Of a DNA stretch of 27,107 bases, positions 7,802-26,910 are shown one piece after another; the stretch's first letter is position 1, and every line of letters begins with the position of its first letter. A program made the position numbers and the translations under genes. The stretch spans positions 1 through 27,107 of the IMG/VR virus record IMGVR_UViG_3300030419_002026. The stretch is one strand, 5' to 3'. The stretch is from a virus. The notes under the pieces were generated by a model. The model was not told the origin of the DNA. It saw nothing but the letters and a program-made list of their open reading frames with translations, and did not search any database.

Positions 7802-7810
7802 GAGGACCAA

Positions 7811-7942
7811 ATGAATCTATTAAAAGATGTTTGGGCACACATAAAAGAATGGAATGAGTGGAAAATGAAGGACTGGATTAAGGCCGGCATTGTAGCCATT
7901 GTAGTTCTTATTGTGCTTCAAGCTATGATACCTGGTGCATAA
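7811..7942 (+). CDS. 43-residue single-span membrane protein
   Basis: This is a short gene between two larger ones. It starts five bases after a strong AGGAGG (7800-7805) that overlaps the previous stop, and its own stop overlaps the next ATG as TAATG. The product begins with a Trp- and Lys-rich amphipathic helix (residues 1-24), followed by one hydrophobic span (about 25-40, AGIVAIVVLIVLQAM) and a short PGA end. There is no lipobox or signal cleavage site. A tiny inner-membrane protein in a phage late operon is often a holin, antiholin or spanin-like lysis factor, and a clearer holin lies 1.6 kb downstream, so a lysis-accessory role is a reasonable guess. Codons look more GC-rich than in the following gene. 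Confidence 0.75.
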   Translation: MNLLKDVWAHIKEWNEWKMKDWIKAGIVAIVVLIVLQAMIPGA

Positions 7943-9554: not shown

Positions 9555-9556
9555 GC

Positions 9557-9943
9557 ATGTGGCAACTATTAGCAAAACCATTATTGGGTGTAGTAGCAGA
9601 TGGAGTTAAAGGCTTCGTGGCTACGAAGAAAATGAAGGGTGAGTTAAAACTTACTGAACTAAAAGCAGCTAAGAAATTAAAAGAAGATCAAATAGCCGGA
9701 AAAGTGAAATGGGAGCAAAGTGCCGTGGACCAAATGAAAGGTTCGTGGAAGGATGAGGTAAGTCTCATTGTCCTACTTTTGCCTGCCGTTTTAGTCTTCA
9801 CGCCTTTTCAAGAACATATACACAAAGGGTTTATCGCCCTCCAGGATTTGCCGTCGTATTACCACAATTTGTTGTACATTGCGATTTCTGCGAGCTTCGG
9901 CATCAAGGCCGGTGCTGGTGCAATTAATATGTTTAAAAAATAA
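9557..9943 (+). CDS. Holin-like protein (3TM holin superfamily)
   Basis: The product would form lesions in the inner membrane at the end of infection so that the endolysin reaches the cell wall. Its 128 residues match the usual plan of this family: an N-terminal segment (WQLLAKPLLGVVADGVKGF) that can form an amphipathic or first membrane helix, a charged Lys-rich linker with a conserved-looking SWKDE (about residues 62-66), a hydrophobic span at about 67-82 (VSLIVLLLPAVLVFTPF) and another at about 102-122. I recall similar proteins as 3TM holins of phages and gene transfer agents. No endolysin lies in this window. GAGG precedes the ATG by five bases. Base composition differs sharply from the flanking unknown gene (28 G/C of 60 at 9841-9900 against 17 of 60 at 9481-9540). 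Confidence 0.7.
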   Translation: MWQLLAKPLLGVVADGVKGFVATKKMKGELKLTELKAAKKLKEDQIAGKVKWEQSAVDQMKGSWKDEVSLIVLLLPAVLVFTPFQEHIHKGFIALQDLPSYYHNLLYIAISASFGIKAGAGAINMFKK

Positions 9944-10134
9944 TGCCTTTTAGATCAGAAAAACAAAGAAGATATTTATGGGCTAATGAGCCTGAAATAG
10001 CAAAAGATTGGACGAAAGAATATGGCAGTAAAATTGTCAAAAAGAATGTAGGTGGCAGTGTCCAAAGAACAGTTAAACCAAGAGGATTTAACTTGATGTT
10101 ACCTAATAAAAGACCTATAACAAAAATCTATTAA
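9943..10134 (+). CDS. Small conserved phage protein (SEKQRRYLWANEPEIA type)
   Basis: This 63-residue basic protein has an N-terminal half, MPFRSEKQRRYLWANEP, of a pattern I have seen in many small phage proteins (forms such as MPFKSEAQRR). Its function is not known to me. The second half is Lys-rich with VGGSVQRTV (about residues 36-44), another Gly-Gly motif, and a hydrophobic end. The start is at a TAATG overlap with the holin-like gene. The stop is followed at once by AAGGAGGA for the next gene. The basic character would fit nucleic acid or membrane-surface contact. Recognition of the family pattern is fairly secure; any role is not. Confidence 0.75.
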   Translation: MPFRSEKQRRYLWANEPEIAKDWTKEYGSKIVKKNVGGSVQRTVKPRGFNLMLPNKRPITKIY

Positions 10135-10144
10135 GGAGGATATT

Positions 10145-10432
10145 ATGGTTGGAAAAGTTACAGTTCGTGGCCAAGGCAAAATTATGCCAGGAAAAAGACA
10201 AACTACTACTACTTTTGCAAAAGGTGGAAGAGTTAAAAAAATGGGCGGCGGCGCTATGAAACAAGGTTACAATGCTAGACTAGATGAATCTTTAGGTGCA
10301 AGACATGGTAAAAAATCACAGTCTTTAAAATCTAGAAGAAATGAATCTAAAGGCATGGAAAAAGCTATGGGTAAAGGTGCGTATTCAGGTGCTTCTACTA
10401 TGGCTAAAAAAGGTGGCTTAAAGAAGAAGTAA
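10145..10432 (+). CDS. Very basic Gly/Lys-rich small protein
   Basis: The 95-residue product is dominated by Lys, Arg, Gly, Ser and Met, with almost no acidic residues outside the middle and no hydrophobic core. Motifs include FAKGGRVKKMGGGAMK (about 21-36), GYNARLDESLGARHGKK (about 38-54), SRRNESKGMEKAMGKGAY and a final KKGGLKKK. I recall closely similar strings in uncharacterised proteins of marine phages, so it is conserved, but no function is known to me. Such a charge pattern suits a disordered DNA- or RNA-binding protein packaged with the genome, or one binding acidic membrane surfaces; both are guesses. A strong AAGGAGGA lies four bases before the ATG. It precedes the co-chaperonin and scaffold block. 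Confidence 0.8.
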   Translation: MVGKVTVRGQGKIMPGKRQTTTTFAKGGRVKKMGGGAMKQGYNARLDESLGARHGKKSQSLKSRRNESKGMEKAMGKGAYSGASTMAKKGGLKKK

Positions 10433-10437
10433 ATTTT

Positions 10438-10641
10438 ATGCGAGATGAAACCGCGATTTATTTAATCTTAAAAAAGATTAGATCGCGCAAAAATGAATTA
10501 AAAGAAGTTATAGCTCAAGGCTTGCCAACTATGGAAGAATATGTTAAAGCAGTTGGCGAGCATAAAGCTTACACTATAATGGAACAGGAGATTCAAGACC
10601 TGCAGAAAGAGGAAGATAATGACGGAGACAGTAATACCTAA
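10438..10641 (+). CDS. Small coiled-coil protein upstream of co-chaperonin
   Basis: The 67-residue product is helical throughout. A first helix reads DETAIYLILKKIRSRKNELK, a second contains YVKAVGEHKAYTIMEQEIQDLQ, and the end is acidic. I recall similar small proteins just before head genes in other phages, without known function. The ribosome site is weak (AAGAAG, 10422-10430 region, then an AT-rich spacer). The end overlaps the next gene by 23 bases, in which its last codons carry the ribosome site of that gene (AGAGGA), so the two are likely coupled. It could be a small assembly cofactor. I cannot exclude a regulatory role. Confidence 0.75.
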   Translation: MRDETAIYLILKKIRSRKNELKEVIAQGLPTMEEYVKAVGEHKAYTIMEQEIQDLQKEEDNDGDSNT

Positions 10642-11122
10642 ACGTAAATTTGCGTTAGAAGAAAAAGATTTAGCTGTTGAGGCTGATGAAAATAATAAAG
10701 TAGCAGAAGATAAAGAAAACAGATTTCTGGCTAAATTACAAGCAGAAGCTACTAACAATATAGAACATTTACCAACAGAAAAAGTATTAGAGCGTTTACC
10801 TGATCCAACAGGTTGGCGTATGTTAGTTTTACCTTATAAAGGACAAGGTAAAACAAAAGGTGGTGTATTATTAACAGATGAGACAATGCAAGAACGTGGC
10901 TATACAACAGTCACTGGTTTGGTTCTTAAAATGGGACCGGATTGTTATACAGATAAAACAAGGTTTCCAAATGGACCCTGGTGCAAATTAAACGATTGGA
11001 TTATATTTGGTCGTTATGCTGGATCAAGGTTTGGAATAGAAGGTGGTGAAGTGAGAATACTTAATGAAGACGAGATAATTGCTGTGGTAAAAGACCCAGA
11101 GGATATCTTGCAATACAAATAA
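10619..11122 (+). CDS. GroES-like co-chaperonin (phage Cpn10)
   Basis: This is probably a phage-encoded lid for the host GroEL chaperonin, analogous to T4 gp31. The 167-residue protein has a 58-residue charged N-terminal extension not found in bacterial GroES (about 97 residues), followed by a Cpn10 fold: the first strand in PTGWRMLVLPYK (about 63-74), a mobile loop GQGKTKGGVLLTDE (about 75-88) whose GGVLL corresponds to the GroEL-binding GGIVL of GroES, then GLVLKMGPDCY, the DWIIFGRYAGSRF barrel strand, and a C-terminal EDEIIAVVKDPEDI (about 149-162) like the ESDILAIVE end of GroES. It sits immediately before the scaffold, decoration and capsid genes, which fits assistance in capsid folding. 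The fold assignment is by eye but several motifs agree in order. Confidence 0.85.
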   Translation: MTETVIPKRKFALEEKDLAVEADENNKVAEDKENRFLAKLQAEATNNIEHLPTEKVLERLPDPTGWRMLVLPYKGQGKTKGGVLLTDETMQERGYTTVTGLVLKMGPDCYTDKTRFPNGPWCKLNDWIIFGRYAGSRFGIEGGEVRILNEDEIIAVVKDPEDILQYK

Positions 11123-11135
11123 ACAGGAGTAAAAT

Positions 11136-12104
11136 ATGCCTGCAGAAGAAGCTAAAAAAGTAGAATCACAAGCAGAAGCTGATGCCAAGATGGTTGATTT
11201 ACCATCTGAAGGAGACTCTGTTGATGTAAAATTAGACTCAACAGAAAAAAGAATTAATAAAGAAGATGATATTGAAGTAGTCAATGAATCTAAAGAAGTT
11301 GTTATAGAAGATAAAGCTGAAACAGCTTCTGAAGGTGAAATGGATGATTACGGGAAAAAAGTTCAATCTCGTATTGATAAATTAACTAAAAAAGTTAGAG
11401 AAGCAGAAAGAAGAGAACAAGCTGCAATTGAATTTGCTCAAGGAGTTCAGCAAAAACAAGCTGAATTACAAAGAAAAGCGCGTCAATTAGATACAGGTTA
11501 TGTAAAAGAATTTGCTACACGTGTTGAGGCTCAAACTGCTGAAGTAAAAAAACAATTAAAAGAAGCTATGGATTTAGGTGATTTTGATAAGCAAGTAGAA
11601 GCTCAGCAAAAATTAGCTAGATTATCTGTTGAAGGAGACAGAGCTAAAAAAAGCATAGAACAGCGTGAAAGGTTAAAAAAGGAAATGGAGGCAAGAGGTG
11701 TCGATCCTGAACAACCTAGAATGCCTAATCCTCAACAAATGCAGCCACCAGCAGCACCACCGCCACCGCCAGATCCAAAGGCAGAGGCTTGGGCTGAAAA
11801 GAATGACTGGTTTGGTAAAGATGAACCTATGACCTTGACTTCTTTCTCAATTCATCGTAAACTAATGGAAGAAGGATTTGACCCGACGTCCGATTCATAT
11901 TATAGTGAAATAGACAAAAGGATGAAGGATACATTTCCTCATAAATTTGAACAACAAGTTTCGCCAACTCAAACGGTTGCTTCTGCTAATAGAGGTGGAC
12001 CTGTTAGGCGCAAAGGCACAGTGAGACTCACACCATCACAAGTAGCCATCGCAAAAAAATTAGGTGTGCCACTAAGCGAATATGCGAAATACGTGAAGGA
12101 GTAG
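11136..12104 (+). CDS. Capsid scaffolding protein
   Basis: This is probably the internal scaffold on which the major capsid protein assembles and which leaves before or during packaging. The 322-residue protein has an acidic, disordered N-terminus (1-70), a long Lys/Glu/Gln/Ala coiled coil (about 75-185), a Pro-rich linker with a run of proline (about 190-215), then a compact C-terminal domain. That domain carries AWAEKNDWFGKDEPMT (about 218-233) and EGFDPTSDSYYSEIDKRM (about 244-261), a pattern I associate with scaffolds of this phage type, and ends in a basic segment that could bind the shell. CAGGAG precedes the ATG. The position between co-chaperonin and capsid genes supports the call. 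No protease domain is seen. Confidence 0.85.
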   Translation: MPAEEAKKVESQAEADAKMVDLPSEGDSVDVKLDSTEKRINKEDDIEVVNESKEVVIEDKAETASEGEMDDYGKKVQSRIDKLTKKVREAERREQAAIEFAQGVQQKQAELQRKARQLDTGYVKEFATRVEAQTAEVKKQLKEAMDLGDFDKQVEAQQKLARLSVEGDRAKKSIEQRERLKKEMEARGVDPEQPRMPNPQQMQPPAAPPPPPDPKAEAWAEKNDWFGKDEPMTLTSFSIHRKLMEEGFDPTSDSYYSEIDKRMKDTFPHKFEQQVSPTQTVASANRGGPVRRKGTVRLTPSQVAIAKKLGVPLSEYAKYVKE

Positions 12105-12108
12105 GCAT

Positions 12109-12579
12109 ATGAATGATAAAGTAATGAAAACTAAACTACCATCACGCGAGTCAGAAACTAGGGCTAAACAAGAGCGTCCTAAAGTATGGACTCCACCGTC
12201 ACAACTAGACGCACCACCTGCACCCGAAGGCTTTAAGCACAGATGGGTAAGGGCCGAATCAGTAGGACAGATGGATCAAAAAAATGTATCCGCTAGACTA
12301 CGAGAAGGATGGGAATTTGTCAGAGCTGATGAATATCCAACCAACGAATGGCCTCAAATTGATTCAGGTAAATATGAAGGTGTTATAGCTGTTGGAGGTT
12401 TAATGCTAGCAAGAATCCCTAATGAGATTGTTGAGCAGCGTAAACAATATTTTGCGAAAGTTACGCAAGATAAAGATGATGCGATTGCAAATGATCCTCT
12501 TAAGGAACAACATCCTAGCATGCCAATCTCGAAAGAGAGAAGCTCTCGCGTAACATTTGGTGGCAAGAAACCTAGTTAA
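12109..12579 (+). CDS. Conserved hypothetical phage protein, pre-capsid
   Basis: The 156-residue protein has a Pro-rich start (residues 22-41) followed by a compact core: GFKHRWVRAESVG, then NVSARLREGWEFVRADEYP (about 62-80), then GVIAVGGLMLARIPNEIVEQR (about 90-110), and a basic, probably flexible C-terminus. I have seen this arrangement in other marine phages next to scaffold and capsid genes, without a known function. A small head-assembly factor is plausible. AAGGAG lies eight bases upstream of the ATG, and a second in-frame ATG at 12124 is possible. The stop is followed by the first real intergenic gap of this stretch, containing a terminator hairpin. Confidence 0.75.
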   Translation: MNDKVMKTKLPSRESETRAKQERPKVWTPPSQLDAPPAPEGFKHRWVRAESVGQMDQKNVSARLREGWEFVRADEYPTNEWPQIDSGKYEGVIAVGGLMLARIPNEIVEQRKQYFAKVTQDKDDAIANDPLKEQHPSMPISKERSSRVTFGGKKPS

Positions 12580-12610
12580 TAAGTTTCCTAACACATAGTT
12601 ACACAATTTT

Positions 12611-12636
12611 AACACACTCGCGGTGAGTGTGTTTTT
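12611..12636 (+). terminator. Rho-independent terminator upstream of decoration gene
   Basis: AACACACTC (12611-12619) pairs perfectly with GAGTGTGTT (12625-12633) across a five-base loop. The second arm runs into five T, then AAAAA and a further six T. This has the shape of an intrinsic terminator. It lies in the 82-base gap before the decoration gene and only about 12 bases upstream of that gene's ribosome site, so upstream transcription would either stop here or read through at a set level. Confidence 0.75.
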
Positions 12637-12661
12637 AAAAATTTTTTCAGGAGAAAAAATC

Positions 12662-13234
12662 ATGGCTAATAATGATGCGCCATTTGGTTTAAGACCTGTA
12701 GGCGAATTAGGAAGCGGCATTCAAAATGGCGGTACTTCTAAATACAAAATTGCAGATGGCTATGCTACTGCGATTTACAAAGGAGATATCGTTAAGTTAG
12801 TTGCTGCAGGAACTATACAAGTTAGTGGAAACGCTGACACTGCGAACGTTGGAGTTTTCAACGGTTGTTTCTACAATGACCCTACTACACAAAAACCAAC
12901 ATGGTCAAACTACTACCCTGGTAGCATAACACCTACTGTGGGCGATATAGACGCGTTCGTTTACGATGATCCAAACATGCTCTTCGAAATTCAAGATAAT
13001 GCAACTCTAGGACAAACTGCTGTTGGCGATAACGCTGACCAAGTTTATGCTGCGGGTTCTACTATCAATGGTCAATCTAAATCTGAGTTAGGTGCTGCTG
13101 CAGGCGGTGCTGCTCAATTAAGAATCATCAGAATTTCTGAAGATCCTGAAAACAGTGACATTGCTAGTGCTAATGCTAACTGGATTGTAAGATTCAACGA
13201 GCATCTGTACTATAACAATGGCACTGGCGTATAA
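12662..13234 (+). CDS. Probable capsid decoration / head structural protein
   Basis: The 190-residue protein begins MANNDAPFGLRPVGELGSG and is mostly beta strand, with small residues and few charges. The segment GCFYNDPTTQKPTWSNYYPG (about 68-87) and a DPENSD motif near residue 161 match a family that I recall lying next to major capsid genes in marine phages, usually considered a head or decoration protein. I start it at the ATG at 12662, which has CAGGAG nine bases upstream; an in-frame GTG at 12623 falls inside the terminator hairpin and is unlikely. The C-terminus contains ANWIVRFNEHLYY. Asn codons are 10 AAC to 8 AAT, intermediate between capsid and unknown genes. It likely binds the outer shell; a vertex role is also possible. 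Confidence 0.75.
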   Translation: MANNDAPFGLRPVGELGSGIQNGGTSKYKIADGYATAIYKGDIVKLVAAGTIQVSGNADTANVGVFNGCFYNDPTTQKPTWSNYYPGSITPTVGDIDAFVYDDPNMLFEIQDNATLGQTAVGDNADQVYAAGSTINGQSKSELGAAAGGAAQLRIIRISEDPENSDIASANANWIVRFNEHLYYNNGTGV

Positions 13235-13254
13235 ACCTAAGGAGATATTGAACA

Positions 13255-14160
13255 ATGGTTATTTCAAGAATGCAATTGGTCAAAGAACTCGAACCTGGTT
13301 TGAACGCCCTGTTTGGTTTAGAGTACGACCGATACGAAAATCAAGACAAAGAAATATTCGATACAGAATCATCTGATCGTGCTTTCGAAGAAGAAGTAAT
13401 GCTTGGCGGTTTCGCTAACGCAGCTGTAAAACCGGAAGGTCAAGGAGTATCATATGAAGATGCTCAAGAAACTTACACTGCTAGGTACACCAACGAGACT
13501 ATTGCTTTAGCTTTTGCACTTACAGAAGAAGCTGTAGAGGATAATCTTTACGACAAACTTAGCACTCGCTATACTAAAGCATTAGCGCGTTCTATGGCTA
13601 ACACTAAACAAGTTAAAGCTGCAAACATTCTTAACAGAGCGTTTAACAACTCTTATCTTGGTGGGGATGCAAAGGAGCTTTGTGCGACTGACCACCCAAC
13701 TCTTAGTGGCGACCAAAAGAACGAGCTATCAACTGCAGCTGACTTAAACGAAACTTCGCTTGAGCAGATGTTAATTGATATTGCTGACATGAAGGACGAA
13801 AGAGGAATGAAAATTGCTCTTAGAGGTATGAAAATGATTATACCAGTAAACCTTCAGTTTGTAGCTGAGAGACTAATGAAATCTGCTGGTAGAGTAGGCA
13901 CTGCTGATAATGATATCAACGCAATCAAATCAATGGGTATGGTACCTGAAGGATATGTTGTAAACAACTTCCTTACTGATACTGATGCGTTCTTCATTAA
14001 AACAGATGCACCTAATGGACTTAAACACTTTGTAAGAGCTCCAATTAGAACTGCTATGGAAGGCGATTTCGATACTGGTAATGTTAGATACAAAGCTAGA
14101 GAAAGATACAGCTTCGGCTGGTCTGACTGGAGAGGTATCTTTGGTTCACCAGGAGCTTAA
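13255..14160 (+). CDS. Major capsid protein (HK97-fold, gpT-like)
   Basis: The 301-residue protein is the main shell subunit. It follows the scaffold and decoration genes. The signature ATDHPTLSGDQKNE (about 144-157), followed by SLEQMLIDIADMKDERGMK (about 168-186) and the strand KMIIPVNLQFVAERLM, is characteristic of Mu gpT-like major head proteins with the HK97 fold. The N-terminus (RMQLVKELEPGLNALFG) is a helical arm, and FDTESSDRAFEEE looks like an E-loop region. There is no long N-terminal delta domain, in keeping with a separate scaffold gene. AAGGAGAT lies eight bases upstream of the ATG. Asn is AAC in 14 of 19 cases, which suggests selection for high expression. A strong hairpin follows within 10 bases of the stop. 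Confidence 0.9.
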   Translation: MVISRMQLVKELEPGLNALFGLEYDRYENQDKEIFDTESSDRAFEEEVMLGGFANAAVKPEGQGVSYEDAQETYTARYTNETIALAFALTEEAVEDNLYDKLSTRYTKALARSMANTKQVKAANILNRAFNNSYLGGDAKELCATDHPTLSGDQKNELSTAADLNETSLEQMLIDIADMKDERGMKIALRGMKMIIPVNLQFVAERLMKSAGRVGTADNDINAIKSMGMVPEGYVVNNFLTDTDAFFIKTDAPNGLKHFVRAPIRTAMEGDFDTGNVRYKARERYSFGWSDWRGIFGSPGA

Positions 14161-19068: not shown

Positions 19069-19425
19069 ATGGCACAGGATTTTGAAAGAGCTGTTGCAGC
19101 GGATGGTTCGGGAGACGTAGCTATTGGTACAACTGCACGTACTATAATAACTTCTAACTCAGACGACGCTATAATAGGCATAAGATTAGCAAACATCGTA
19201 ACACAAACAATTCAAGCAGATGTCTATATTACTAGCACAGCTAGTGGTGGATCAGCTGATTCTTACATTGTAAAAAATGTAAGCATTCCTCAAGGATCTA
19301 GTATAGAATTGATTGATGGCGGTTCAAAAGTTGTGCTTCAAAGCACTGACGTTTTGAAGGCAAAATCGGATACAGCGAATAGTTTGAATGTTTGGGTATC
19401 GTATATAGATAGTATAAGCACGTAG
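19069..19425 (+). CDS. Small beta-rich fibre-region protein
   Basis: The 118-residue protein has a likely single beta domain: VAIGTTARTIITSNSDDAII (17-36), TIQADVYITSTASGGS, a SYIVKNVSIPQGSSIELIDG segment (about 65-84), and LKAKSDTANSLNVWVSYID near the end. The hydrophobic/polar alternation is typical of small phage virion proteins. I recall similar proteins in fibre regions of other marine phages but have no name for them. The first ATG is preceded by AGGTA (19063-19067), a weak ribosome site. It sits between a stem-type and an adaptor-type fibre protein and could be part of the same complex. Confidence 0.6.
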   Translation: MAQDFERAVAADGSGDVAIGTTARTIITSNSDDAIIGIRLANIVTQTIQADVYITSTASGGSADSYIVKNVSIPQGSSIELIDGGSKVVLQSTDVLKAKSDTANSLNVWVSYIDSIST

Positions 19426-19432
19426 GAGAGTC

Positions 19433-19876
19433 ATGGCGTATATAGGTCCAGGTAGTTCAAGTGAATTTAAATCAATGGCAACTCAGACTATCACTGGTGA
19501 TGGTTCTGCTCAAAGCTTTTCTTTAAACCAATCAGTTTCTGATTCTTCTTCTGTAAGATTCGTAGTTAATAACGTTGTTCAAAAACCAGATGTAGATTAC
19601 ACTGCAAGTGGTACAACATTATCTACTGGATCTAGTACATTAGCAGGATCTGATGCAGCATATGTAGTATTTATTGGAGCAGCTGTAGGTTACCAAACAC
19701 CAGCTACTGGTAGTGTTGACCATACTGCAATTAACCCAAGCTTTAACGGTATGTATTTAAACTTAGCAACAATTACTTCAGACGTAACAATAACAGCAAC
19801 ACAAAATGCTTTTGTGGCTGGACCAGTTAATTACACTGGAACAGTGACAGTAGCAGGAACATTAACGGTGATATAA
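19433..19876 (+). CDS. Fibre attachment-type protein, AYIGPG family (cassette 1)
   Basis: The 147-residue protein begins MAYIGPGSSSEFK and continues with a beta domain of the kind that starts phage tail fibres: an AQSFSLNQSVSDSSSVRFVV segment (26-45), VVQKPDVDYTASGTTL and SDAAYVVFIG (about 73-82). Its end is DVTITATQNAFVAGPV followed by strand repeats. A second protein with the same start and ending lies at 22754-23227; the two share MAYIGPG, a GS-rich strand and the AxVAGP motif near the end. It probably anchors or spaces a fibre. AGGAG precedes the ATG, and the stop overlaps the next gene as TAATG, so it is translated together with the C1q-like protein that follows. Confidence 0.7.
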   Translation: MAYIGPGSSSEFKSMATQTITGDGSAQSFSLNQSVSDSSSVRFVVNNVVQKPDVDYTASGTTLSTGSSTLAGSDAAYVVFIGAAVGYQTPATGSVDHTAINPSFNGMYLNLATITSDVTITATQNAFVAGPVNYTGTVTVAGTLTVI

Positions 19877-20445
19877 TGGGAACTTTATTCGTAGACAAAT
19901 TAGATCCACAAAGTGGAACTTCATTAGAGATTGGTAGTTCAGGGGACACCATGACGGTGCCTTCAGGCGCTACATTTAATGTTGCTGGAACATTACAAAG
20001 TGGTGGAGCTACTGTAAGTAATGCTCCTATGTTTCGTGTTTTTAGAAGCACAGATCAAAGTGTTGCAAATTCAACATATACTAAAATTCAATACAATTCT
20101 GAAAGTTATGATACTGATGCAGCTTTTGATAGTTCTACTAACTATCGTTTTACTGCACCATCTGCAGGAAAATATTATTTTTTATCACAATTACAGTACA
20201 CAGCTACTACTGATGGAGGTCAACTGCGTGCTCAATTTTATGTTAATGGAAGTGCTTTTCATTCTTCGTTAAGAATGCAGCATACTTCTCCAAACACATC
20301 AGATAATTTTATGGTTATGGCTGATGTACTAAGTTTATCAGCAAGTGATTATGTTGAAGTTTTTGGTTATCAAAGTGAAAGTGGAAGTAGAAACTTTGAG
20401 TCTTACAAAAATTATTTTTTAGGATATAAATTAATAGGAACATAA
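19876..20445 (+). CDS. C1q-like fibre/adhesin protein
   Basis: The 189-residue protein has an N-terminal beta-solenoid-like stretch, EIGSSGDTMTVPSGATFNVA (18-37), and a C-terminal domain of the C1q/TNF jelly-roll type: a FRVFRSTDQSVANSTYTKIQ strand region, FTAPSAGKYYFLSQLQYT (about 94-111), RAQFYVNGS, then DVLSLSASDYVEVFGYQS (about 148-165) and a closing NYFLGYKLIG. The GKYYF, DYVEV and FLGYKLIG positions are the usual C1q-like signatures. Such domains trimerise and often bind glycans or proteins, so it is likely a receptor-binding piece. It starts at a TAATG overlap with the AYIGPG gene. Similar proteins follow at 20820, 21417, 23224 and 23854. Confidence 0.75.
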   Translation: MGTLFVDKLDPQSGTSLEIGSSGDTMTVPSGATFNVAGTLQSGGATVSNAPMFRVFRSTDQSVANSTYTKIQYNSESYDTDAAFDSSTNYRFTAPSAGKYYFLSQLQYTATTDGGQLRAQFYVNGSAFHSSLRMQHTSPNTSDNFMVMADVLSLSASDYVEVFGYQSESGSRNFESYKNYFLGYKLIGT

Positions 20446-20472
20446 TGATAACAATTTTAAAAGGAGGTCTAT

Positions 20473-20808
20473 ATGGCAAGTCTATCAACTAAAGTTAAGC
20501 TTTACTGTGAAGCGAACAGCAAAACTGCTGATTTCGGTCCAAACGGTAATGTAGCTTTACAGGATGATTCGGACGGTAAAGGCCCGTATATAGCGAGCTG
20601 GAGCGTCGATGGTTTAGATAAACCAACTGATGCACAACTAGCAGCACATGATACGGCTGGCGATACTGAAGAGTCAAACAACGCTGTAAGAAGTACAAGA
20701 AAGGGACTTTATGGTGATATTGGCGATCAGCTTGATGAGATATATAAGGATATCGACGCGTGGAAGGCAAGAATCAAGAAGATCAAAGATGATAATCCAA
20801 AGTCTTAA
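20473..20808 (+). CDS. Tail-fibre assembly chaperone-like protein
   Basis: The 111-residue protein has a beta-rich start (VKLYCEANSKTADFGPNG), PYIASWSVDGLDKPTDAQL in the middle (about 38-56) and a helical end (LYGDIGDQLDEIYKDIDAWK, about 79-98). The last part resembles the DIGDQLDxIY ending of small fibre-assembly or XkdW-type proteins found beside fibre genes. Such proteins help fold or attach fibres and are usually not in the final virion. AAGGAGGT lies five bases before the ATG, the strongest ribosome site of the fibre region. It lies between two C1q-like genes. Confidence 0.65.
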   Translation: MASLSTKVKLYCEANSKTADFGPNGNVALQDDSDGKGPYIASWSVDGLDKPTDAQLAAHDTAGDTEESNNAVRSTRKGLYGDIGDQLDEIYKDIDAWKARIKKIKDDNPKS

Positions 20809-20819
20809 AGGAGTAATAA

Positions 20820-21416
20820 TTGAGTAAGATTCAAGTAGATACTATTGATACTAGATCTGGTACGTCTACCATGCAAATTGGTAGCACGAACACGACTACA
20901 ATCACGTTAGGGGTTTCAGGTGACACGATAAACGTGCCGTCTGGAGTAACCATTGCTAACGCAGGTACAGCTACAGGCTTTGGTGGAGATAATACTCCAT
21001 CATTTATGGTTTATAACGCTAGCAACCAAAGTTTATCAACTAGCACTTGGACTAAAGCAACTTTAGGCGGAGAAGTTTGGGATACTGATAATGCTTTTGG
21101 AAGTTCAAAGTTTACTGTACCAAGCGGAGAAGGTGGCAAGTATCACTTTACTGCTGGTATTCATATTCAAGACCACACATCTGGTAGAACGCAAGCGGCA
21201 TTTTATAAAAATGGGTCAATAGTAGCTACTGACACTGGAATGGCACAACTTAGGACAATACACCATGAAGGAGATACGACTTATGCTTTTATGTCTTGGA
21301 ATGGTAATTTAGCAGCAGGCGATTATATGGAATTATATTGTGAACAAACAGGTGGTAGCACAGAAAATATTATGCTTGGCACTTGGTTTAGTGGTTTTAA
21401 ATTAATAGGGGTATAG
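20820..21416 (+). CDS. C1q-like fibre protein, TTG start
   Basis: The 198-residue protein begins at TTG (20820), with AAAGGAG seven bases upstream; no in-frame ATG is nearby, and the predicted start aligns residue for residue with the ATG start of the paralogue at 23224. The N-terminal module has TMQIGSTNTTTITLGVSGDT (17-36) and VTIANAGTATGFGG (43-56), sharing 52 of 65 residues with the 23224 product. The C-terminal C1q-like domain shows FTVPSGEGGKYHFTAGIHIQ (about 98-117), AAFYKNGS, DYMELYCEQT (about 169-178) and a final FSGFKLIGV. The codons of the N-terminal module differ widely from those of the paralogue. It is likely a receptor-binding tip. The next gene starts immediately after the stop. 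Confidence 0.75.
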   Translation: MSKIQVDTIDTRSGTSTMQIGSTNTTTITLGVSGDTINVPSGVTIANAGTATGFGGDNTPSFMVYNASNQSLSTSTWTKATLGGEVWDTDNAFGSSKFTVPSGEGGKYHFTAGIHIQDHTSGRTQAAFYKNGSIVATDTGMAQLRTIHHEGDTTYAFMSWNGNLAAGDYMELYCEQTGGSTENIMLGTWFSGFKLIGV

Positions 21417-21986
21417 ATGAGCACACTGAAAGTAGACGAGATACTCAAGAGAACCGGGACAGGTACCATTACAATTGGGCAGTCAGGGGATACCATTAGT
21501 ATTCCTTCAGGGGCTACGCTTAATAGTGCAGGTACGAATACATTAACGGGTATTGACAATACTCCTAGTTTTGGTGCCGTAAGTGCTGCAAATCAAACAG
21601 CTTCTTATGATGCTAACACAAAGGTTGTTTTTGGTACTGAACAATGGGATTCAAATAGTGCTTTTGCTGATTCAAGATTTACAGTTCCTTCTGGAGAAGC
21701 AGGTAAATATTTATTTTTAACTGGTGTCCGTTTTAATGCAGTTGCATCAAATAAAGATATACAATTAGTTTTTAGAAAAAACGGAACACAATTAGATTAT
21801 GGTATGTCAAAAATTAAAAGTTATATATCAAGTGGTACAGCCACACAAAGCATGATTGCACATATTACATTAGATTTATCAGCTTCAGATTATGTTGAAA
21901 TTTATGTATATACAAGTGATAGTAGTGGAAATGTATTACCAAGTGGTTATGCTTTTTTTTCAGGACATAAATTATTAGGAGTATAA
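21417..21986 (+). CDS. C1q-like fibre protein
   Basis: The 189-residue protein has the same plan as its neighbours: an N-terminal GTITIGQSGDTISIPSGATL segment (about 15-34), then a jelly-roll with FTVPSGEAGKYLFLTGVRFN (about 88-107), LVFRKNGTQLDYG, DLSASDYVEIYVYTSDSS (about 154-171), and the close FFSGHKLLGV. Compared with the 20820 product it shares the plan rather than close sequence. The ATG follows the previous stop without spacing, so translation is probably coupled. Its likely role is receptor binding, with ligand unknown. Confidence 0.72.
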   Translation: MSTLKVDEILKRTGTGTITIGQSGDTISIPSGATLNSAGTNTLTGIDNTPSFGAVSAANQTASYDANTKVVFGTEQWDSNSAFADSRFTVPSGEAGKYLFLTGVRFNAVASNKDIQLVFRKNGTQLDYGMSKIKSYISSGTATQSMIAHITLDLSASDYVEIYVYTSDSSGNVLPSGYAFFSGHKLLGV

Positions 21987-21987
21987 C

Positions 21988-22566
21988 ATGGCATTTGCAA
22001 CGATAGATGTAACAAAAGGAATCACAGGAACAATCCCTGTAGCTAATGGCGGTACAGGCATAGCGTCTGGTACATCAGGACAGTTTTTAAAATTTACTGG
22101 TAGCACGACACTTGCTAGTTCTGCTGTCGACGCTGGAAAAATTGCACAAGTTATTCAAACAATTTTTTCAACAGATACAGATTTTGCCGCATCAAGTTTT
22201 GGAGATATAACTGGTGGTGGAAACACACTAGCCGCTACTATTACTCCAACTGCATCAGATTCAAAAGTTTTAATTAATTATACTATACAAGCACAGCATG
22301 GTAGTAATAGAGGATATAAAACTCAAATAGAAAGAGCAATAAGTGGTGGAGCAACATCTAATATTTTTACACAACCAAACCAAAAAGATACTTACGGAGA
22401 TGGCGATACAAATGCTAGTAGAAGTTCAGTACAATATTTAGATTCTCCAAGCACAACTTCAGCAACAACTTACACAATACAAATTGGAACTGACGGAGCC
22501 CAAACAGTTACTATAGCAAATGGTGGTTCACAATGTATGATTACACTTATGGAGGTTTTAGCATGA
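21988..22566 (+). CDS. NGGTG-type tail fibre protein (cassette 1)
   Basis: The 192-residue protein starts with ITGTIPVANGGTGIASGTSG (about 12-31), the attachment motif common in phage fibre and baseplate-linked proteins. A beta domain follows, with ATITPTASDSKVLINYTI (about 83-100) and SSVQYLDSPSTTSATTYTIQ (about 145-164), ending in QCMITLMEVLA. A paralogue at 25488-26054 has the same order and a similar end (QVILMEISA). I see no C1q signature here; the fold is probably a different jelly roll. The small gene at 22563 overlaps its end by four bases (ATGA) and could be its chaperone. Confidence 0.68.
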   Translation: MAFATIDVTKGITGTIPVANGGTGIASGTSGQFLKFTGSTTLASSAVDAGKIAQVIQTIFSTDTDFAASSFGDITGGGNTLAATITPTASDSKVLINYTIQAQHGSNRGYKTQIERAISGGATSNIFTQPNQKDTYGDGDTNASRSSVQYLDSPSTTSATTYTIQIGTDGAQTVTIANGGSQCMITLMEVLA

Positions 22567-22754
22567 CTTATACACCTAAACCAACAATAGGAGCGGCTAT
22601 AAAAGCTATCAATGCAGATGCAGAATTTTCATGTCCATCACATGACACTGCAAAGTTGGATAATATTGTATGGTATAACAATACAACACCAATAGCTAAA
22701 GAAGATATTATTACAAAATATAATGAATTAGTTACCACATGGGAGAGTAGTTAA
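22563..22754 (+). CDS. Small helical protein after NGGTG fibre
   Basis: The 63-residue protein is acidic to neutral and mostly helical: GAAIKAINADAEFSC (10-24), LDNIVWYNNTTPIAKEDIITKYNEL (about 32-56, given here in two parts: LDNIVWYNNTT and KEDIITKYNEL). I start it at the ATG at 22563, because that gives the ATGA overlap seen at other junctions and TATGGAGG-like sequence lies upstream; a start at 22533 would require the upstream gene to be read in another frame. The motif with IVW...ITKYNEL resembles short proteins beside fibre genes in other marine phages. A fibre-assembly chaperone role is a guess. It overlaps the next gene as TAATG. Confidence 0.6.
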   Translation: MTYTPKPTIGAAIKAINADAEFSCPSHDTAKLDNIVWYNNTTPIAKEDIITKYNELVTTWESS

Positions 22755-23227
22755 TGGCATATATTGGACCAGGATTAGCATTTGGCGCGTTCCAGAAGCT
22801 CGATGATATTAGCTCAGGATTTAACGGATCCAATACTGATTTTAGCCTTCAGGTAGGTGGAAGCACCGTGGAGATGGCATCATTGAACCAATGTATTATT
22901 TCTATATCAGGAGTAATTCAGGAGCCTAATAGCGCATTTACTTTTGGATCAACTAGATCTAGTATTGCTTTTACAGCACCACCAGCAGCTTCAGATACGT
23001 TCTTTGGAATTTTACTTGGTAACTCATTTGACGCTGGCACTCCAGCTGATTCTAGTATATCATACGATAAGTTAACAACAATCAACGGTGTGTATAGAAA
23101 CGTACAGACCTTGACACAGAATTTAACGCTAGCAGCAAGTGATAATGCACTTGTAGCTGGGCCATTCACGGTACAGTCTGGCAAAACTTTAACCGTACCA
23201 TCAGGAGCAACGTTTGTTATCGTATGA
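22754..23227 (+). CDS. Fibre attachment-type protein, AYIGPG family (cassette 2)
   Basis: The 157-residue protein is a paralogue of the 19433 product. It starts MAYIGPGLAFGAFQKLDDIS, then GFNGSNTDFSLQVGG (about 23-37) and SISGVIQEPNSAFTFGS (about 50-66), a typical fibre N-terminal beta domain with a VIQEP-type strand. A helical linker (SSISYDKLTTINGVYRNV, about 100-117) follows, with an end like LAASDNALVAGPFTVQSG and TLTVPSGATFVIV. It overlaps the preceding small gene as TAATG and the following C1q-like gene as ATGA, so the set is read as one unit. Confidence 0.7.
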   Translation: MAYIGPGLAFGAFQKLDDISSGFNGSNTDFSLQVGGSTVEMASLNQCIISISGVIQEPNSAFTFGSTRSSIAFTAPPAASDTFFGILLGNSFDAGTPADSSISYDKLTTINGVYRNVQTLTQNLTLAASDNALVAGPFTVQSGKTLTVPSGATFVIV

Positions 23228-23853
23228 GTAAGATTGAAACAAATACAATAGATACAATTTCAGGATCTAATACAATGCAGATTGGCAGTACAAATACTGC
23301 TACGATAAATCTTGGTGTATCAGGAGATACAATCAATGTACCTGCTGGCGTAACGATTGCCAATGCAGGAACTGCTACTGGCTTTGGTGGTAATAATGCT
23401 CCATCATTTAATGCTTACATGAGTGCAGTGCAAGCAATAAGCAATACAACAAGAACAATTTTAGCATTTGATAATGATAGTGGAACAACTGGTGGTAAAA
23501 AAGCATATGATACAGATAATGCTTTTGACACTAGCACATATAAATTTACTCCACAAACAGCAGGATATTATTATGCATGGATGTATATGGGGTTACAAGA
23601 TTTAAACAGCGGTAATTTTTATCAAATAAATTTATGTAAAAATGGGTCAGCTGACGGTGATAAATTTTCACAAAATTATTTTAGACAAAATGGCACTGAC
23701 AGTATTTATGCAACTTCTGTAGGAGTAACTTATTTAAATGGTAGTTCCGATTTTATATGCGCTGTTATACAACACAATCACGGATCAAACAGAAACACAT
23801 CGGACACTTACAATACAGGTTTTGGTGCTTGGAAATTAAATGGAGTTTCATAG
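23224..23853 (+). CDS. C1q-like fibre protein (paralogue of 20820)
   Basis: The 209-residue protein shares 52 of its first 65 residues with the 20820 product, including TMQIGSTNT, LGVSGDTINVP and GVTIANAGTATGFGG, then diverges. The C-terminal domain has AYDTDNAFDTSTYKFTPQTA (about 99-118), AGYYYAWMYMGLQD (about 117-130), INLCKNGSADGDKF and a close reading GFGAWKLNGVS. The GYYYA and final WKLNG positions match a C1q-like fold, though the last strand is altered. It is likely a receptor-binding piece with different specificity. It overlaps the AYIGPG gene by four bases. Confidence 0.72.
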   Translation: MSKIETNTIDTISGSNTMQIGSTNTATINLGVSGDTINVPAGVTIANAGTATGFGGNNAPSFNAYMSAVQAISNTTRTILAFDNDSGTTGGKKAYDTDNAFDTSTYKFTPQTAGYYYAWMYMGLQDLNSGNFYQINLCKNGSADGDKFSQNYFRQNGTDSIYATSVGVTYLNGSSDFICAVIQHNHGSNRNTSDTYNTGFGAWKLNGVS

Positions 23854-24435
23854 ATGGTATCACAAATTAAAGTAAACGAAATCATCAAGCAGTCTGGATC
23901 ATCAATTGGTATTGGTGAGTCAGGAGACACTATTACATTAACAGGCGACACAATTAATCTTGGAACAACAGGAAATACTATAAACCTTGCAGGGTCAGCT
24001 TATTCATCAAGTGTTTTATGTGATCCTTTTTTTCATGCTACTAGATCAGGCTCTCACAATATAGCAGATCAAACAGATTCTGTAATACCATTTAACGCTG
24101 AAGTTGCAGATACAGATGGTGCTTTTGACACATCTACATATCGTTTCACAGTTCCATCAGGAAAAGGGGGTCGTTATTTCTTTTCTACATTCATTGGATC
24201 TGATGATGGTAATTCATTTAATTATTATATGACTAAAATTAGAAAAAATGGTAGCGTTATCGCTGATTGGATAAATTATCATGGTCCAAATTCTTCTGGT
24301 TTTTGCCAAGCAGTAATAACTTTAGTAGCTGGCGACTATATGGATGTTGTTGTTTATCAAAATAGAGGTACAACAAGCGCGTTAAATCCAGCAGCAGCTA
24401 ATACATATTTTTTAGGATATAGGTTAACAACATGA
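23854..24435 (+). CDS. C1q-like fibre protein
   Basis: The 193-residue protein begins IKVNEIIKQSGSSIGIGESG (5-24) with repeated GDTITLTGDTINLGTTG strands, a short solenoid-like stem. The jelly-roll part has DTDGAFDTSTYRFTVPSGKG (about 86-105), GRYFFSTFIG (about 106-115), IRKNGSVIADW, then LVAGDYMDVVVYQNRG (about 157-172) and a close YFLGYRLTT. All C1q-like positions (GRYFF, DYMDV, FLGYRL) are present. It starts directly after the previous stop and overlaps the next gene by ATGA. Its function is likely receptor binding. It is the last clear C1q-like gene of the array. Confidence 0.73.
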   Translation: MVSQIKVNEIIKQSGSSIGIGESGDTITLTGDTINLGTTGNTINLAGSAYSSSVLCDPFFHATRSGSHNIADQTDSVIPFNAEVADTDGAFDTSTYRFTVPSGKGGRYFFSTFIGSDDGNSFNYYMTKIRKNGSVIADWINYHGPNSSGFCQAVITLVAGDYMDVVVYQNRGTTSALNPAAANTYFLGYRLTT

Positions 24436-25169
24436 CAAGTGAAATAAAAGCAGATAAATGGTCACCAGCGTCAGGTACCGCCGGTACAATTGGTGACTCA
24501 GGTGATACGTTTACTTTAACTGCAGGAGCAAATTTAACTCTAGGTGGAGCAAGTACAACAGTCAGTGTTCCTTCAGGCGCTACACTTGATGTAGCATCTG
24601 GTGCAACATTTGATGCAACTGGCGCTACGGTTACAGGAATAAGTGGTGGTTTAGTTCCTGTTGGACAAGTTAATGGAGGAAGTGCCGCTGCAGTAAATTT
24701 AGATAGTATTTTTTCAGCCACATATAAAAACTATATTATTATAGTTGATAAATTAGTTCCAGATAGTGGTGGTGCTAGTGTGTATATGCAGTTTAGAGAT
24801 GAAAGTGGTGATTTAGGAGGTAGTAATTATGGATATTCTGCTAGATCATTAAATGCAGATACTGGTGGTGAAGATAATACTGACAATGATGGACACACTT
24901 TAGCTAGATTTGAGGGTTCTGGTGTAGCGGGTGACGCAAATAAACTTGGTATGAGAATGGTAATGAATGTTCAAGATCCTTACACAAGCACAGTTTATAC
25001 AGGTTGGCATGGAACATTTGGTTTTATAAATAATTCTGGATATGTAAATTCTGGTTATTTTGGAGGGTTATATCATGATAATGATTCTGTAAGAGGAATT
25101 AAATTATATTTAAATACAGGTGGTAATCTAACTGCAACGATTAGAGCATATGGAGTGGTAAATAGTTAA
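24432..25169 (+). CDS. Fibre protein with distinct jelly-roll-like tip
   Basis: The 245-residue protein has an N-terminal stem of IGDSGDTFTLTAGANLTLGG (about 20-39) and PSGATLDVASGATFDATGAT repeats, followed by NLDSIFSATYKNYIIIVDKL (about 90-109), a pattern I recall as the start of a phage fibre tip domain (IF...YxNYxI). The rest is Gly/Asn-rich beta sequence with a DDNDSVRGIKLYLNTGGNL-like end (written here from YHDNDSVRGIKLYLNTGGN) and IRAYGVVNS. It differs from the C1q-like neighbours. It is probably a receptor-binding or shaft protein. The following gene is chaperone-like. It overlaps the previous gene as ATGA. Confidence 0.65.
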   Translation: MTSEIKADKWSPASGTAGTIGDSGDTFTLTAGANLTLGGASTTVSVPSGATLDVASGATFDATGATVTGISGGLVPVGQVNGGSAAAVNLDSIFSATYKNYIIIVDKLVPDSGGASVYMQFRDESGDLGGSNYGYSARSLNADTGGEDNTDNDGHTLARFEGSGVAGDANKLGMRMVMNVQDPYTSTVYTGWHGTFGFINNSGYVNSGYFGGLYHDNDSVRGIKLYLNTGGNLTATIRAYGVVNS

Positions 25170-25170
25170 T

Positions 25171-25488
25171 ATGAGTAAAATAAACGTTAACGGAATATTA
25201 AGAGATGCAACACCAGAGGAGCAAGCTAAAATAGATGCTTTAAAAGCAGAGTATATTAATGATGCGCCTAATAGAAAACTTGCAGAAATAAGAAAAATTA
25301 GATTAACAAAATTACAAGAAACAGATTTTTATGCACTAGGAGATGTAACAATGAGTGACGAGATGAAGACCTGGCGTCAAAGTTTACGCGACATCCCTGC
25401 CAACCACACGGATGAAGCAGCATATGATTTGCTTTTAGCAAGAGACGCTTCAGGAAAATTAACACACAGCGTATGGAGTAAACCGTAA
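25171..25488 (+). CDS. Tail assembly chaperone-like protein (Phage_tail_APC type)
   Basis: The 105-residue protein has a helical N-terminus (ILRDATPEEQAKIDALKAEY, about 9-28) and the block IRLTKLQETDFYALGDVTMS (about 43-62) followed by DEMKTWRQSLRDIPANHTDE (63-82). The order RLxxTDW/F, then WRQxLRDIP, is the signature of phage tail assembly chaperones of the APC kind, though here Phe replaces the usual Trp. Such proteins help fibre or tail proteins fold and are often next to fibre genes. It starts two bases after the previous gene and its stop overlaps the next start as TAATG. Confidence 0.7.
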   Translation: MSKINVNGILRDATPEEQAKIDALKAEYINDAPNRKLAEIRKIRLTKLQETDFYALGDVTMSDEMKTWRQSLRDIPANHTDEAAYDLLLARDASGKLTHSVWSKP

Positions 25489-26054
25489 TGGCACTAACTA
25501 GATTAAACACAAACGCATATGGCTCTACAATAAATTTAGCAAGCAATGTTACAGGTACGCTTGCTACAGCTAATGGTGGTACAGGTGCTACAAGTTTTAG
25601 CCCTGGTAAAGTTTTACAAACTCAATCAGCTTTATTTACAAGTCAATCTTCACACACTACAGAAAGTTATACTGCTACTAATTATACTGACCAAATAACT
25701 CCAAGTGCAACTAATTCAAAAATTTTTGTTCTATTTAATTTTAGAAGTCATATTTATCTATCTAGTGGCACAGCGGCTAGAAGTAGATTATCTGTTTTTA
25801 GACAAATTAATGGTGGTGGCTACTCTCAAATGTTTCCAAATACAGCAGATATTTGTTGGGGTATTGGAGTTAGTAGTGGTGAAAGAAGTTTATATTCTAC
25901 ACCACAAATTAGTTTTTTAGACACAACACATAATACAACAGATGCTATTGATTACAAATTATACGCAAGAAGAGACACTTCATCAACTGGAACTGTAAAT
26001 GTAGGTGGTAGTTTGCATCAAGCACAAGTTATACTTATGGAGATTTCAGCATGA
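25488..26054 (+). CDS. NGGTG-type tail fibre protein (cassette 2)
   Basis: The 188-residue protein is the counterpart of the 21988 product. It has LASNVTGTLATANGGTGATS (about 17-36), a Ser/Thr-rich stem, then TDQITPSATNSKIFVLFNFR (about 67-86), ISFLDTTHNTTDAIDYKLYA (about 141-160) and VNVGGSLHQAQVILMEISA at the end. The two proteins agree in these positions (ITPTASDSK/ITPSATNSK and LMEVLA/LMEISA) but otherwise differ. It is likely a receptor-binding or adaptor fibre. The TAATG start follows the APC-like gene; the small gene at 26051 overlaps its end by ATGA, as in the first cassette. Confidence 0.68.
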   Translation: MALTRLNTNAYGSTINLASNVTGTLATANGGTGATSFSPGKVLQTQSALFTSQSSHTTESYTATNYTDQITPSATNSKIFVLFNFRSHIYLSSGTAARSRLSVFRQINGGGYSQMFPNTADICWGIGVSSGERSLYSTPQISFLDTTHNTTDAIDYKLYARRDTSSTGTVNVGGSLHQAQVILMEISA

Positions 26055-26275
26055 TTGATTTAGATAAATTTAGTAAAGCTATGCACACATTAAAACCTTC
26101 AGCACAATGGACTTTAATAGATGATACTGATGAAACATCATTAACAGAAGAATTATTTAATAATGTAGATTGGGTTACTGGCGAAGATAGTAATGGCATT
26201 GCTATAACAACTAAAACAAATCCTCATTCAGAAATAAGCTACGCAGCTGTCAAAGCTGAAATAGATAAACTCTAA
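26051..26275 (+). CDS. Small acidic protein after NGGTG fibre
   Basis: The 74-residue protein has a helical start (IDLDKFSKAMHTLKPSAQW), an acidic centre with IDDTDETSLTEELFNNVDW (about 23-41) and a C-terminal SEISYAAVKAEIDKL (about 60-74). It takes the same position relative to the NGGTG fibre as the 63-residue gene at 22563, and both have a TAATG overlap with the next gene and an ATGA overlap with the fibre. I do not see a close match of sequence between them, so they may be functional equivalents rather than homologues. A fibre-chaperone role is a guess. Confidence 0.6.
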   Translation: MIDLDKFSKAMHTLKPSAQWTLIDDTDETSLTEELFNNVDWVTGEDSNGIAITTKTNPHSEISYAAVKAEIDKL

Positions 26276-26910
26276 TGACTTTCGCTGCCGCATCATTCGG
26301 TGAGCGTGCCTTTTCCGAAGACGTTTTTCAACATACTTTTGTAACACCAACAGGTGTTGCAGGCACTTTTTCTTTAGGCACAACGACGGTAACAGGGACA
26401 GCGCTTGTTACACCAAGTGGTGTTCAAGCAACTTTTTCTGTAGGATCTGTCACTGTTAGTGTAGTCACTGAGGTTCCAGTTACAGGTCTTGGTATGACCA
26501 TGGGCCTTGGAACAGTCACCGTCACTGGTACGGCTGTAGTTTCACCAACTGGTTTAGCTATTACCTCGTCTCTTGGAACAGTTACTGTTTCAGGTTCTGC
26601 TGTTGTAGAACCAACAGGTGTTGCAGCTACATTTAGCTTAGGGGATGTAAGTGTTAGTGGTACAGCTGAAGTATCACCAACTGGAGTTTCCTCGACATTT
26701 AGTGTTGGAGATGTTACATTAGAATCTAGGTATTTTCCTACTGGTGTTCAAGCAACCTTTGGTCTTGGCACAGTTACTGTTACAGCTTCGGCAGTTGTAA
26801 TTCCAACTGGGGTAGCAATAACTTCTGCTGTAGGTGACCCTAAACTAACAATCTGGAATGGTGTAGATGATTCCAGCACAAACACATGGACTGTCGTTCC
26901 AACAGGATAA
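26275..26910 (+). CDS. Tandem-repeat virion protein, eight about 22-residue units
   Basis: The 211-residue protein has a short N-terminal segment (residues 1-21) and then eight imperfect repeats of about 22 residues with the pattern V-x-P-T-G-V-x-A-T-F-S-L-G-T-V-T-V-x-G-x-A. The sixth and seventh are slightly shorter. Each unit could supply two strands of an elongated beta structure. The end (GVDDSSTNTWTVVPTG) lacks the pattern. I recall PTG/LG repeats like this in marine phage fibre-region proteins. It may be a spacer or stalk. It starts at a TAATG overlap with the small acidic gene. The C-terminal tail might connect to another protein. Confidence 0.7.
   Translation: MTFAAASFGERAFSEDVFQHTFVTPTGVAGTFSLGTTTVTGTALVTPSGVQATFSVGSVTVSVVTEVPVTGLGMTMGLGTVTVTGTAVVSPTGLAITSSLGTVTVSGSAVVEPTGVAATFSLGDVSVSGTAEVSPTGVSSTFSVGDVTLESRYFPTGVQATFGLGTVTVTASAVVIPTGVAITSAVGDPKLTIWNGVDDSSTNTWTVVPTG
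26338..26850 (+). repeat. Degenerate in-frame tandem repeat, about 66-base period
   Basis: The segment encodes eight copies of a PTGV...SLGTVTV unit, seen as repeated CCAACTGG-like and TTGGAACAGTTACTGTT-like blocks. The copies differ at many third positions, so the protein pattern is conserved more than the DNA. Ends are approximate. Confidence 0.7.

Follow-up and report, generated by a model that had tools for sequence, protein, structure and literature searches.

Receptor-binding genes with a C1q domain were described in 2014 from the metaviromic islands of pelagiphages, where a conserved N-terminus is combined with a hypervariable C1q domain (PMC3909814). In addition, anchor-branched receptor-binding systems are known in E. 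coli and Klebsiella phages, examples being K1-5, G7C, CBA120 and the Klebsiella phages KP32, Menlow, phiK64-1 and RaK2 (PMC6872550, PMC10253068), in which up to 11 receptor-binding proteins with exchangeable C-terminal parts are carried on a conserved anchor through conserved N-terminal peptides. Here we analyse the fibre genes at positions 19433-26275 of the IMG/VR virus record IMGVR_UViG_3300030419_002026, of which the whole stretch of 27,107 nucleotides (nt) is hereafter called the window. Two cassettes follow one another in this locus, each consisting of a putative anchor protein (A1 or A2), four small tip proteins and accessory genes (Table 1). Each of the eight tip genes opens with an N-terminal plug of 25-45 residues, and comparison with related contigs revealed that the plugs are fixed per slot, whereas the heads behind them are exchanged in blocks from phage to phage, slot to slot and cassette to cassette.

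Related loci were gathered by scanning viral contigs with A1, A2 and T0, the latter being encoded by the gene at 17384. From these contigs 138 complete tips were cut, and the slots were numbered by gene order from each anchor, or by the neighbouring genes in two incomplete contigs. Tips were required to begin with a known plug type (any type, in any slot), truncated tips were excluded, and five divergent contigs (L139, L142, L149, L178 and L239) were left out. The plug was taken as the first 24 residues and the head as residue 60 to the end, and for each the nearest match was sought in another contig. For 137 of the 138 tips the nearest plug was found in the same slot (permutation mean 20), compared with only 38 of 138 for the nearest head (permutation mean 19). 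Mean plug identity was 87% within slots versus 21% between slots, while the corresponding values for heads were 28% and 23%, and plug conservation falls to background past residues 25-55. The same pattern is seen in the DNA: nucleotide homology to relatives covers A1 and the first ~95 nt of slot 1.1, stops, resumes at the end of slot 1.1, then spans the accessory gene H and the first 80-190 nt of the following tip, and so on, being interrupted in the heads.

Heads were also found on unrelated plugs, and 13 head pairs with at least 60% identity sit in different slots. The clearest case concerns slot 2.2 of contig L170 and slot 1.3 of L115, whose heads are 97% and plugs 21% identical, with 91% nucleotide homology from nt 113 and 110, respectively, to the stop codon. 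Six further hops were examined, and in five of them the homology lies mostly beyond the plug. The window takes part in this exchange as well: the slot 1.1 head of L221 shares 83% identity with the head in slot 2.2 of the window, and the slot 2.4 head of L167 shares 82% with that in slot 1.4. No recent copying of heads between slots was seen within one genome (best intragenomic pair 43%), an absence that is not significant given the low overall rate. Metagenome assembly may in principle create such mosaics by joining strains at conserved plugs, and the conserved ~100-nt 5' segments would be plausible switch points; nevertheless, both sides of such a hop have unrelated plugs and the downstream genes that belong there, a state that does not arise when assemblies collapse at a shared plug, and the general order and some of the plug types recur in cultured isolates, so that we consider an artefact very improbable indeed.

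The original prediction had proposed two successive fibre sets, 19433-22754 and 22754-26275, each with a protein carrying an AYIGPG motif, C1q-like tips, an NGGTG tip and small accessory genes, and this description holds. A1 and A2 (19433/22754) are related (32% identity over 153 residues, E 1.6e-13, shuffle z-score 20), as are the NGGTG proteins N1 and N2 (21988/25488; 26% over 202 residues, E 2e-12, shuffle z-score 12). The C1q-like genes 19876, 20820, 21417, 23224 and 23854 are all paralogous to one another (E 1e-12 to 2e-41), and 24432 shares mainly its N-terminus with these five; one phage encodes several different tips, as had been expected. A parallel gene order was recovered in part: the plug pairs 20820-23224, 21417-23854 and 21988-25488 follow in the same order, but the pairing is shifted, and 19876 and 24432 lack a clear partner. 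One chaperone-like gene is indeed present per set, but the two are unrelated, as 20473 (H) is XkdW-like (32.3 bits against a cut-off of 24.6 for Pfam XkdW, PF09636) and 25171 (C) belongs to Phage_tail_APC (29.1 bits against 26.6, PF16778), with a further match to PHROG 4912, tail fiber assembly. A small gene likewise occurs in each set; X1 shows profile similarity to H and to X2 (26051), control comparisons with C giving no match; the resemblance of X1 to X2 is seen by profile only, as direct BLAST of the two found nothing, and the start of X1, called at 22533, is likelier at 22563, at the stop of 21988. The two sets are not full copies of each other, and to that extent the original prediction was incomplete.

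These relationships fit an old block duplication, which is not dated by the data, because the plug pairs 1.2-2.1, 1.3-2.2 and 1.4-2.4 occur in the same order beside A1-A2 and X1-X2, with 19876 and H added later to the first cassette and 24432 and C to the second. A simple tandem duplication could be taken one step further, to the view that an ancestral cassette was copied as a block, that the copies drifted, and that the tips are redundant fibre pieces without any slot logic. The homology of A1/A2, N1/N2 and X1/X2 and the order of the plug pairs speak for such an origin. However, drift alone does not yield 87% plug identity beside ~28% head identity within one gene, or heads that are 97% identical on unrelated plugs, and the tips without a counterpart and the unrelated H and C are not accounted for. 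Duplication may well be how the locus arose, but it leaves the present pattern unexplained and, as the full explanation, is contradicted by the exchange of head blocks between slots, which makes it unlikely.

A1 and A2 are read as docking domains mainly because, in the isolates and in the sister contigs L101, L102, L103, L128, L139, L142 and L149, an A1-type domain forms the N-terminus of a fibre of ~260-530 residues with its own C-terminal part. A single-sequence search with A1 gave no relative in phage records, nor in genome contigs. In a tree of anchor domains, first-position and second-position anchors form separate clades with support of 100/100 each; the A1 clade includes the N-terminal domains of the fused fibres HTVC115P gp64, HTVC203P gp42 and Lederberg g5, and the A2 clade includes HTVC115P gp60, Lederberg g2, HTVC203P gp39 and HTVC010P. 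Since each clade contains cultured isolates, both anchors are old, in agreement with the earlier view that the two sets have diverged and been retained for long. A2 matches PHROG 18673, tail fiber (1.5e-36), and is 96-97% identical in several contigs. The combined A1+A2 profile hits fibre gp28 of cyanophage P-SCSP1u at residues 580-672 (PDB 8i4m; E 2.3e-11), a fibre in which the N-terminal part is the clearly resolved one (PMC10575957); as the matched region is internal, the hit speaks for a fibre domain but not for virion binding in particular. Iterated hidden Markov models (HMMs) merged A1 with A2 and family Q with family R, and hhalign matches between Q and A1 were implausible (4% identity); strict families were rebuilt, and profile comparison from iterated HMMs was used only for X1, X2 and H. 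Open reading frames of 59 residues in L119, L132-L136 and L158 resemble the anchors only in the C-terminal motif AGPVxxTGTVTVxG and are perhaps a minimal version of the tip-receiving part.

The two-anchor plan is old and common to cultured pelagiphages, and the anchors, the gene t5 in front of A1 and H are conserved. In each of the 24 contigs with both anchors A1 comes before A2, more often than chance would give, so that gene order is kept in related phages and independent arrival of the genes was not seen. With small variations, the usual order is t5, A1, tip, H, tip, tip, NGGTG tip, X, A2, tip, tip, tip, C, NGGTG tip, X and P, and the tips are far less conserved than the anchors, t5 and H. 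H is 80-96% identical in most relatives. In several contigs t5 keeps 94-97% identity although their T0 reaches no more than 30-66%, and by eye it resembles HTVC115P gp65, Lederberg g6 and HTVC203P gp43, all of which are placed just before the anchor; t5 is thus a possible docking partner. Between L156 and the window, t5 and A1 are 97% and 99% identical with synonymous difference proportions of 0.22 and 0.26, whereas T0 and t3, the gene next to it, are 66% and 58% identical with proportions of 0.46 and 0.67. Given these values, it is probable that the anchor region has been transferred between lineages, rather than simply being held under stronger selection. The anchors of L163 are 93-97% identical to those of the window beside a T0 of 30%; no portal was found in that fragment, and a different virion type is not claimed.

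Seven of the eight tips of the window fall into one superfamily (C1q/TNF), as the N-type head model lies near TNF-like lectins and C1q. The product of 23854 lies above the Pfam C1q cut-off (24.1 bits against 23.7), and 19876, 20820, 21417 and 23224 are homologous to it. The N1 model has a mean predicted local distance difference test score (pLDDT) of 83, with the head blocks mostly above 90. Its head is predicted to be a jelly-roll of the TNF/C1q type, the nearest solved structures being the TNF-like lectins PLTL (Z 15.3; 126 residues at 2.2 A) and BC2L-C (Z 14.8), both crystallised with glycans of blood-group type, followed by C1q domains at Z of about 10.5-10.9. Furthermore, the N-protein profile matches the C-terminal 159 residues of the solved chain orf22 (9efk, 18 copies; E 3e-13), and no paper naming PDB 9efk was present in the literature searched. 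No fold was identified for the R-type head of 24432. The likeness to these lectins suggests that the heads may bind glycans. Head type is not strictly tied to the slot, since slot 1.3 carries an N-type head in 7 of 19 loci and the slot 2.3 plug, common to 12 loci, bears five R-type and seven C1q heads.

We regard as probable a docking platform of two anchors with interchangeable lectin heads. A1 and A2 would serve as fibre docking domains without tips of their own, and the four small tips encoded after each would carry a slot-specific plug and a head of the C1q/TNF superfamily or of the R-type. Each tip may be trimeric, each plug may bind a matching site on the anchor or on a neighbouring tip, and the two anchors would give rise to two branched fibres. 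The XkdW-like and APC proteins may aid folding or assembly of the tips, and the heads would bind surface glycans of SAR11. Recombination between the conserved anchors, plugs and accessory genes would import new heads while leaving assembly undisturbed. Several points weigh against this explanation. None of the proteins of this phage has been seen in a virion, and the AlphaFold model of the anchor (19 rows) reached a pLDDT of 40 and was not used, so that no socket was identified. Heads are not entirely free either, as slots 1.1 and 1.2 carry only C1q, slots 1.4 and 2.4 almost only N, and slots 1.3 and 2.3 are mixed, and their same-slot count (38/138) exceeds all 500 permutations. The contigs are moreover related to one another, which makes the counts not independent, and shared ancestry of the locus accounts for part of the plug count; what is telling is how plug and head differ within the same genes, together with the hops to unrelated plugs.

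Instead of branching, the tips might be stacked end to end on A1 and A2 as two long composite fibres with the last head alone exposed, as in the long tail fibres of T4. Such sequential assembly would suit the fixed operon order and the SGDTxTVPSGATL-like motif common to A2 and the plugs, but every tip ends in a head that varies like a receptor-binding domain, while conservation would be expected of pieces inside a shaft, and we find a chain improbable. The docking platform could be extended to a bolder proposal, in which one virion shows eight different lectin heads on eight mutually specific plug-socket positions of two anchors, and several SAR11-infecting lineages share a pool of heads moved between positions, cassettes and lineages, amounting to a combinatorial array varied by recombination and without mutation machinery; this we put forward tentatively, as conceivable but still rather doubtful. 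No reverse transcriptase (RVT_1) match was obtained in 17 records, most of them fragments, compared with three of 14 control genomes, and thus there is no sign of a diversity-generating retroelement. The idea that one phage switches between tips was not borne out, as no phase-variation device was seen beside this lack of a reverse transcriptase, and the replacement that we did see is between genomes.

Compared with the C1q genes of the metaviromic islands, the present genes likewise combine a conserved N-terminus with a hypervariable C1q part near tail fibre genes, and XkdW and tail fibre assembly genes are also found in those islands. In the accessible part of that source, however, the genes are treated singly, and two anchors, eight positions, slot-specific plugs or exchange of heads between slots do not appear (PMC3909814). 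The cultured pelagiphages HTVC115P, Lederberg EXVC029P and HTVC203P share a t5-like gene, an A1-type anchor, H, X or C genes, an A2-type anchor, several small tips and some of the same plugs, and only an A2-type anchor was identified in HTVC010P. HTVC115P gp59, encoded directly behind the A2 of that phage, has a plug that shares 77% identity with the slot 2.1 consensus, and slot 2.4 gives the best plug match for HTVC115P gp56 and Lederberg g69. In these isolates, unlike in the window, the A1-type anchor carries a fused C1q or N head, fusion of A2 is seen in HTVC203P and HTVC010P, and the tips are fewer. The arrangement, of which the original prediction knew no description, is thus not private to this phage, and genes with a conserved N-terminus and a variable C1q part were already on record (PMC3909814). 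As to a two-anchor array whose heads move between eight positions, each with its specific plug, no description was found in the limited open-access literature searched, nor did that literature hold a pelagiphage virion structure.

The likeness to G7C- and CBA120-type systems lies in conserved N-terminal peptides with exchangeable C-terminal parts, as judged from the slot counts and head hops; the putative anchors A1 and A2 are conserved as well and are homologous to the N-terminal domains of fused pelagiphage fibres. Those systems have large depolymerase spikes and T4 gp10-like branching domains, whereas small lectin-like heads and two separate anchors are seen here. A1, A2 and the tips gave no Pfam match to a T4 gp10-like domain, and the anchor model was too poor for a fold search. 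The locus may work like an anchor-branched system by analogy, but membership is not claimed, as neither a gp10-like branching domain nor a complex was seen. Fixed plugs allow tips to be recognised and heads to be delimited by sequence alone, so that head repertoires can be read slot by slot from metagenomes. The locus also offers a direct way to test whether small marine phages built from lectin folds have adsorption complexes with many heads, as known from large enterobacterial phages. Related phages may alter what they bind by swapping heads between positions and between phages.

Table 1. Features of the fibre locus, with positions in the window
Feature	Position	Strand	Description
t5	19069..19425	+	118 residues; conserved structural gene just upstream of A1
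A1, first anchor	19433..19876	+	147 residues; fibre domain without own tip; A2 paralogue
Tip slot 1.1	19876..20445	+	plug MGTLFVDKLDPQSGT..., C1q-like head; plug common to 26 loci
H	20473..20808	+	XkdW-like accessory protein, 111 residues
Tip slot 1.2	20820..21416	+	TTG start; plug SK(V/I)QVDTIDTRSGTSTMQIGSTNT..., C1q-like head; paralogue of other C1q tips
Tip slot 1.3	21417..21986	+	plug MSTLKVDxILKRTGTGTITxGQSGDT; head C1q-like in the window
Tip slot 1.4, NGGTG gene N1	21988..22566	+	plug MAFATIDVTKGITGTIPVANGGTG; predicted TNF/C1q-like jelly-roll head, residues ~51-192
X1	22563..22754	+	small accessory protein, 63 residues; same position in relatives
A2, second anchor	22754..23227	+	157 residues; ends TLTVPSGATF, like distal part of tip plugs
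Tip slot 2.1	23224..23853	+	plug MSKIETNTIDTxSG..., C1q-like head
Tip slot 2.2	23854..24435	+	plug MVSQIKVNEIIKQSGSS..., C1q head
Tip slot 2.3	24432..25169	+	plug MTSEIKADKWSPASGT..., R-type head; plug common to 12 loci
C	25171..25488	+	tail assembly chaperone-like protein, 105 residues
Tip slot 2.4, NGGTG gene N2	25488..26054	+	plug MALTRL..., N-type head; N1 paralogue
X2	26051..26275	+	small accessory protein, 74 residues; X1 counterpart by profile and position
P	26275..26910	+	repeat protein, 211 residues, after second cassette

In the viral record, genes for terminase, portal, major capsid and neck precede a series of small genes on one strand. The fibre genes are all open at the positions in Table 1, and nearly all are joined by short overlaps or gaps of <30 nt. 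By portal, the nearest isolates are the Pelagibacter phages HTVC027P and HTVC023P (51-52%). The related record L171 (60,427 nt) has a T0 homologue at its end and a t3 homologue at its start, and the genome size is therefore probably ~60 kb, like that of HTVC027P and HTVC023P; L171 (positions 1-13510), listed as linear, probably reads as a circularly permuted, near-complete genome. We take the locus to be the module by which a tailed marine phage adsorbs, the phage itself probably being of ~60 kb and related to HTVC023P-type pelagiphages. SAR11 bacteria are the probable host, the best evidence being H, which matches 11 phage records, all of them Pelagibacter phages, with 78% identity in HTVC115P.

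The slot 1.2 plug is common to 23 loci and has a TTG start in 23 of 23, while nearly all other slots have ATG, and this start possibly lowers the translation rate of that tip. P is built of ~22-residue repeats (PTGVxxTFSLGxVTVxGxAxV) with copies spaced 60-66 nt, follows the second cassette in most relatives, and is assigned to the apparatus by position only. Three large genes between terminase and portal (852-5057; 482, 387 and 533 residues) gave no PHROG match, and a 167-residue gene at 10619-11122 sits where HTVC023P and HTVC027P have genes with a GroES co-chaperone annotation. A promoter scan was at chance level (27 found, 32 expected), and eight terminator-like sites were found where 4.2 were expected.

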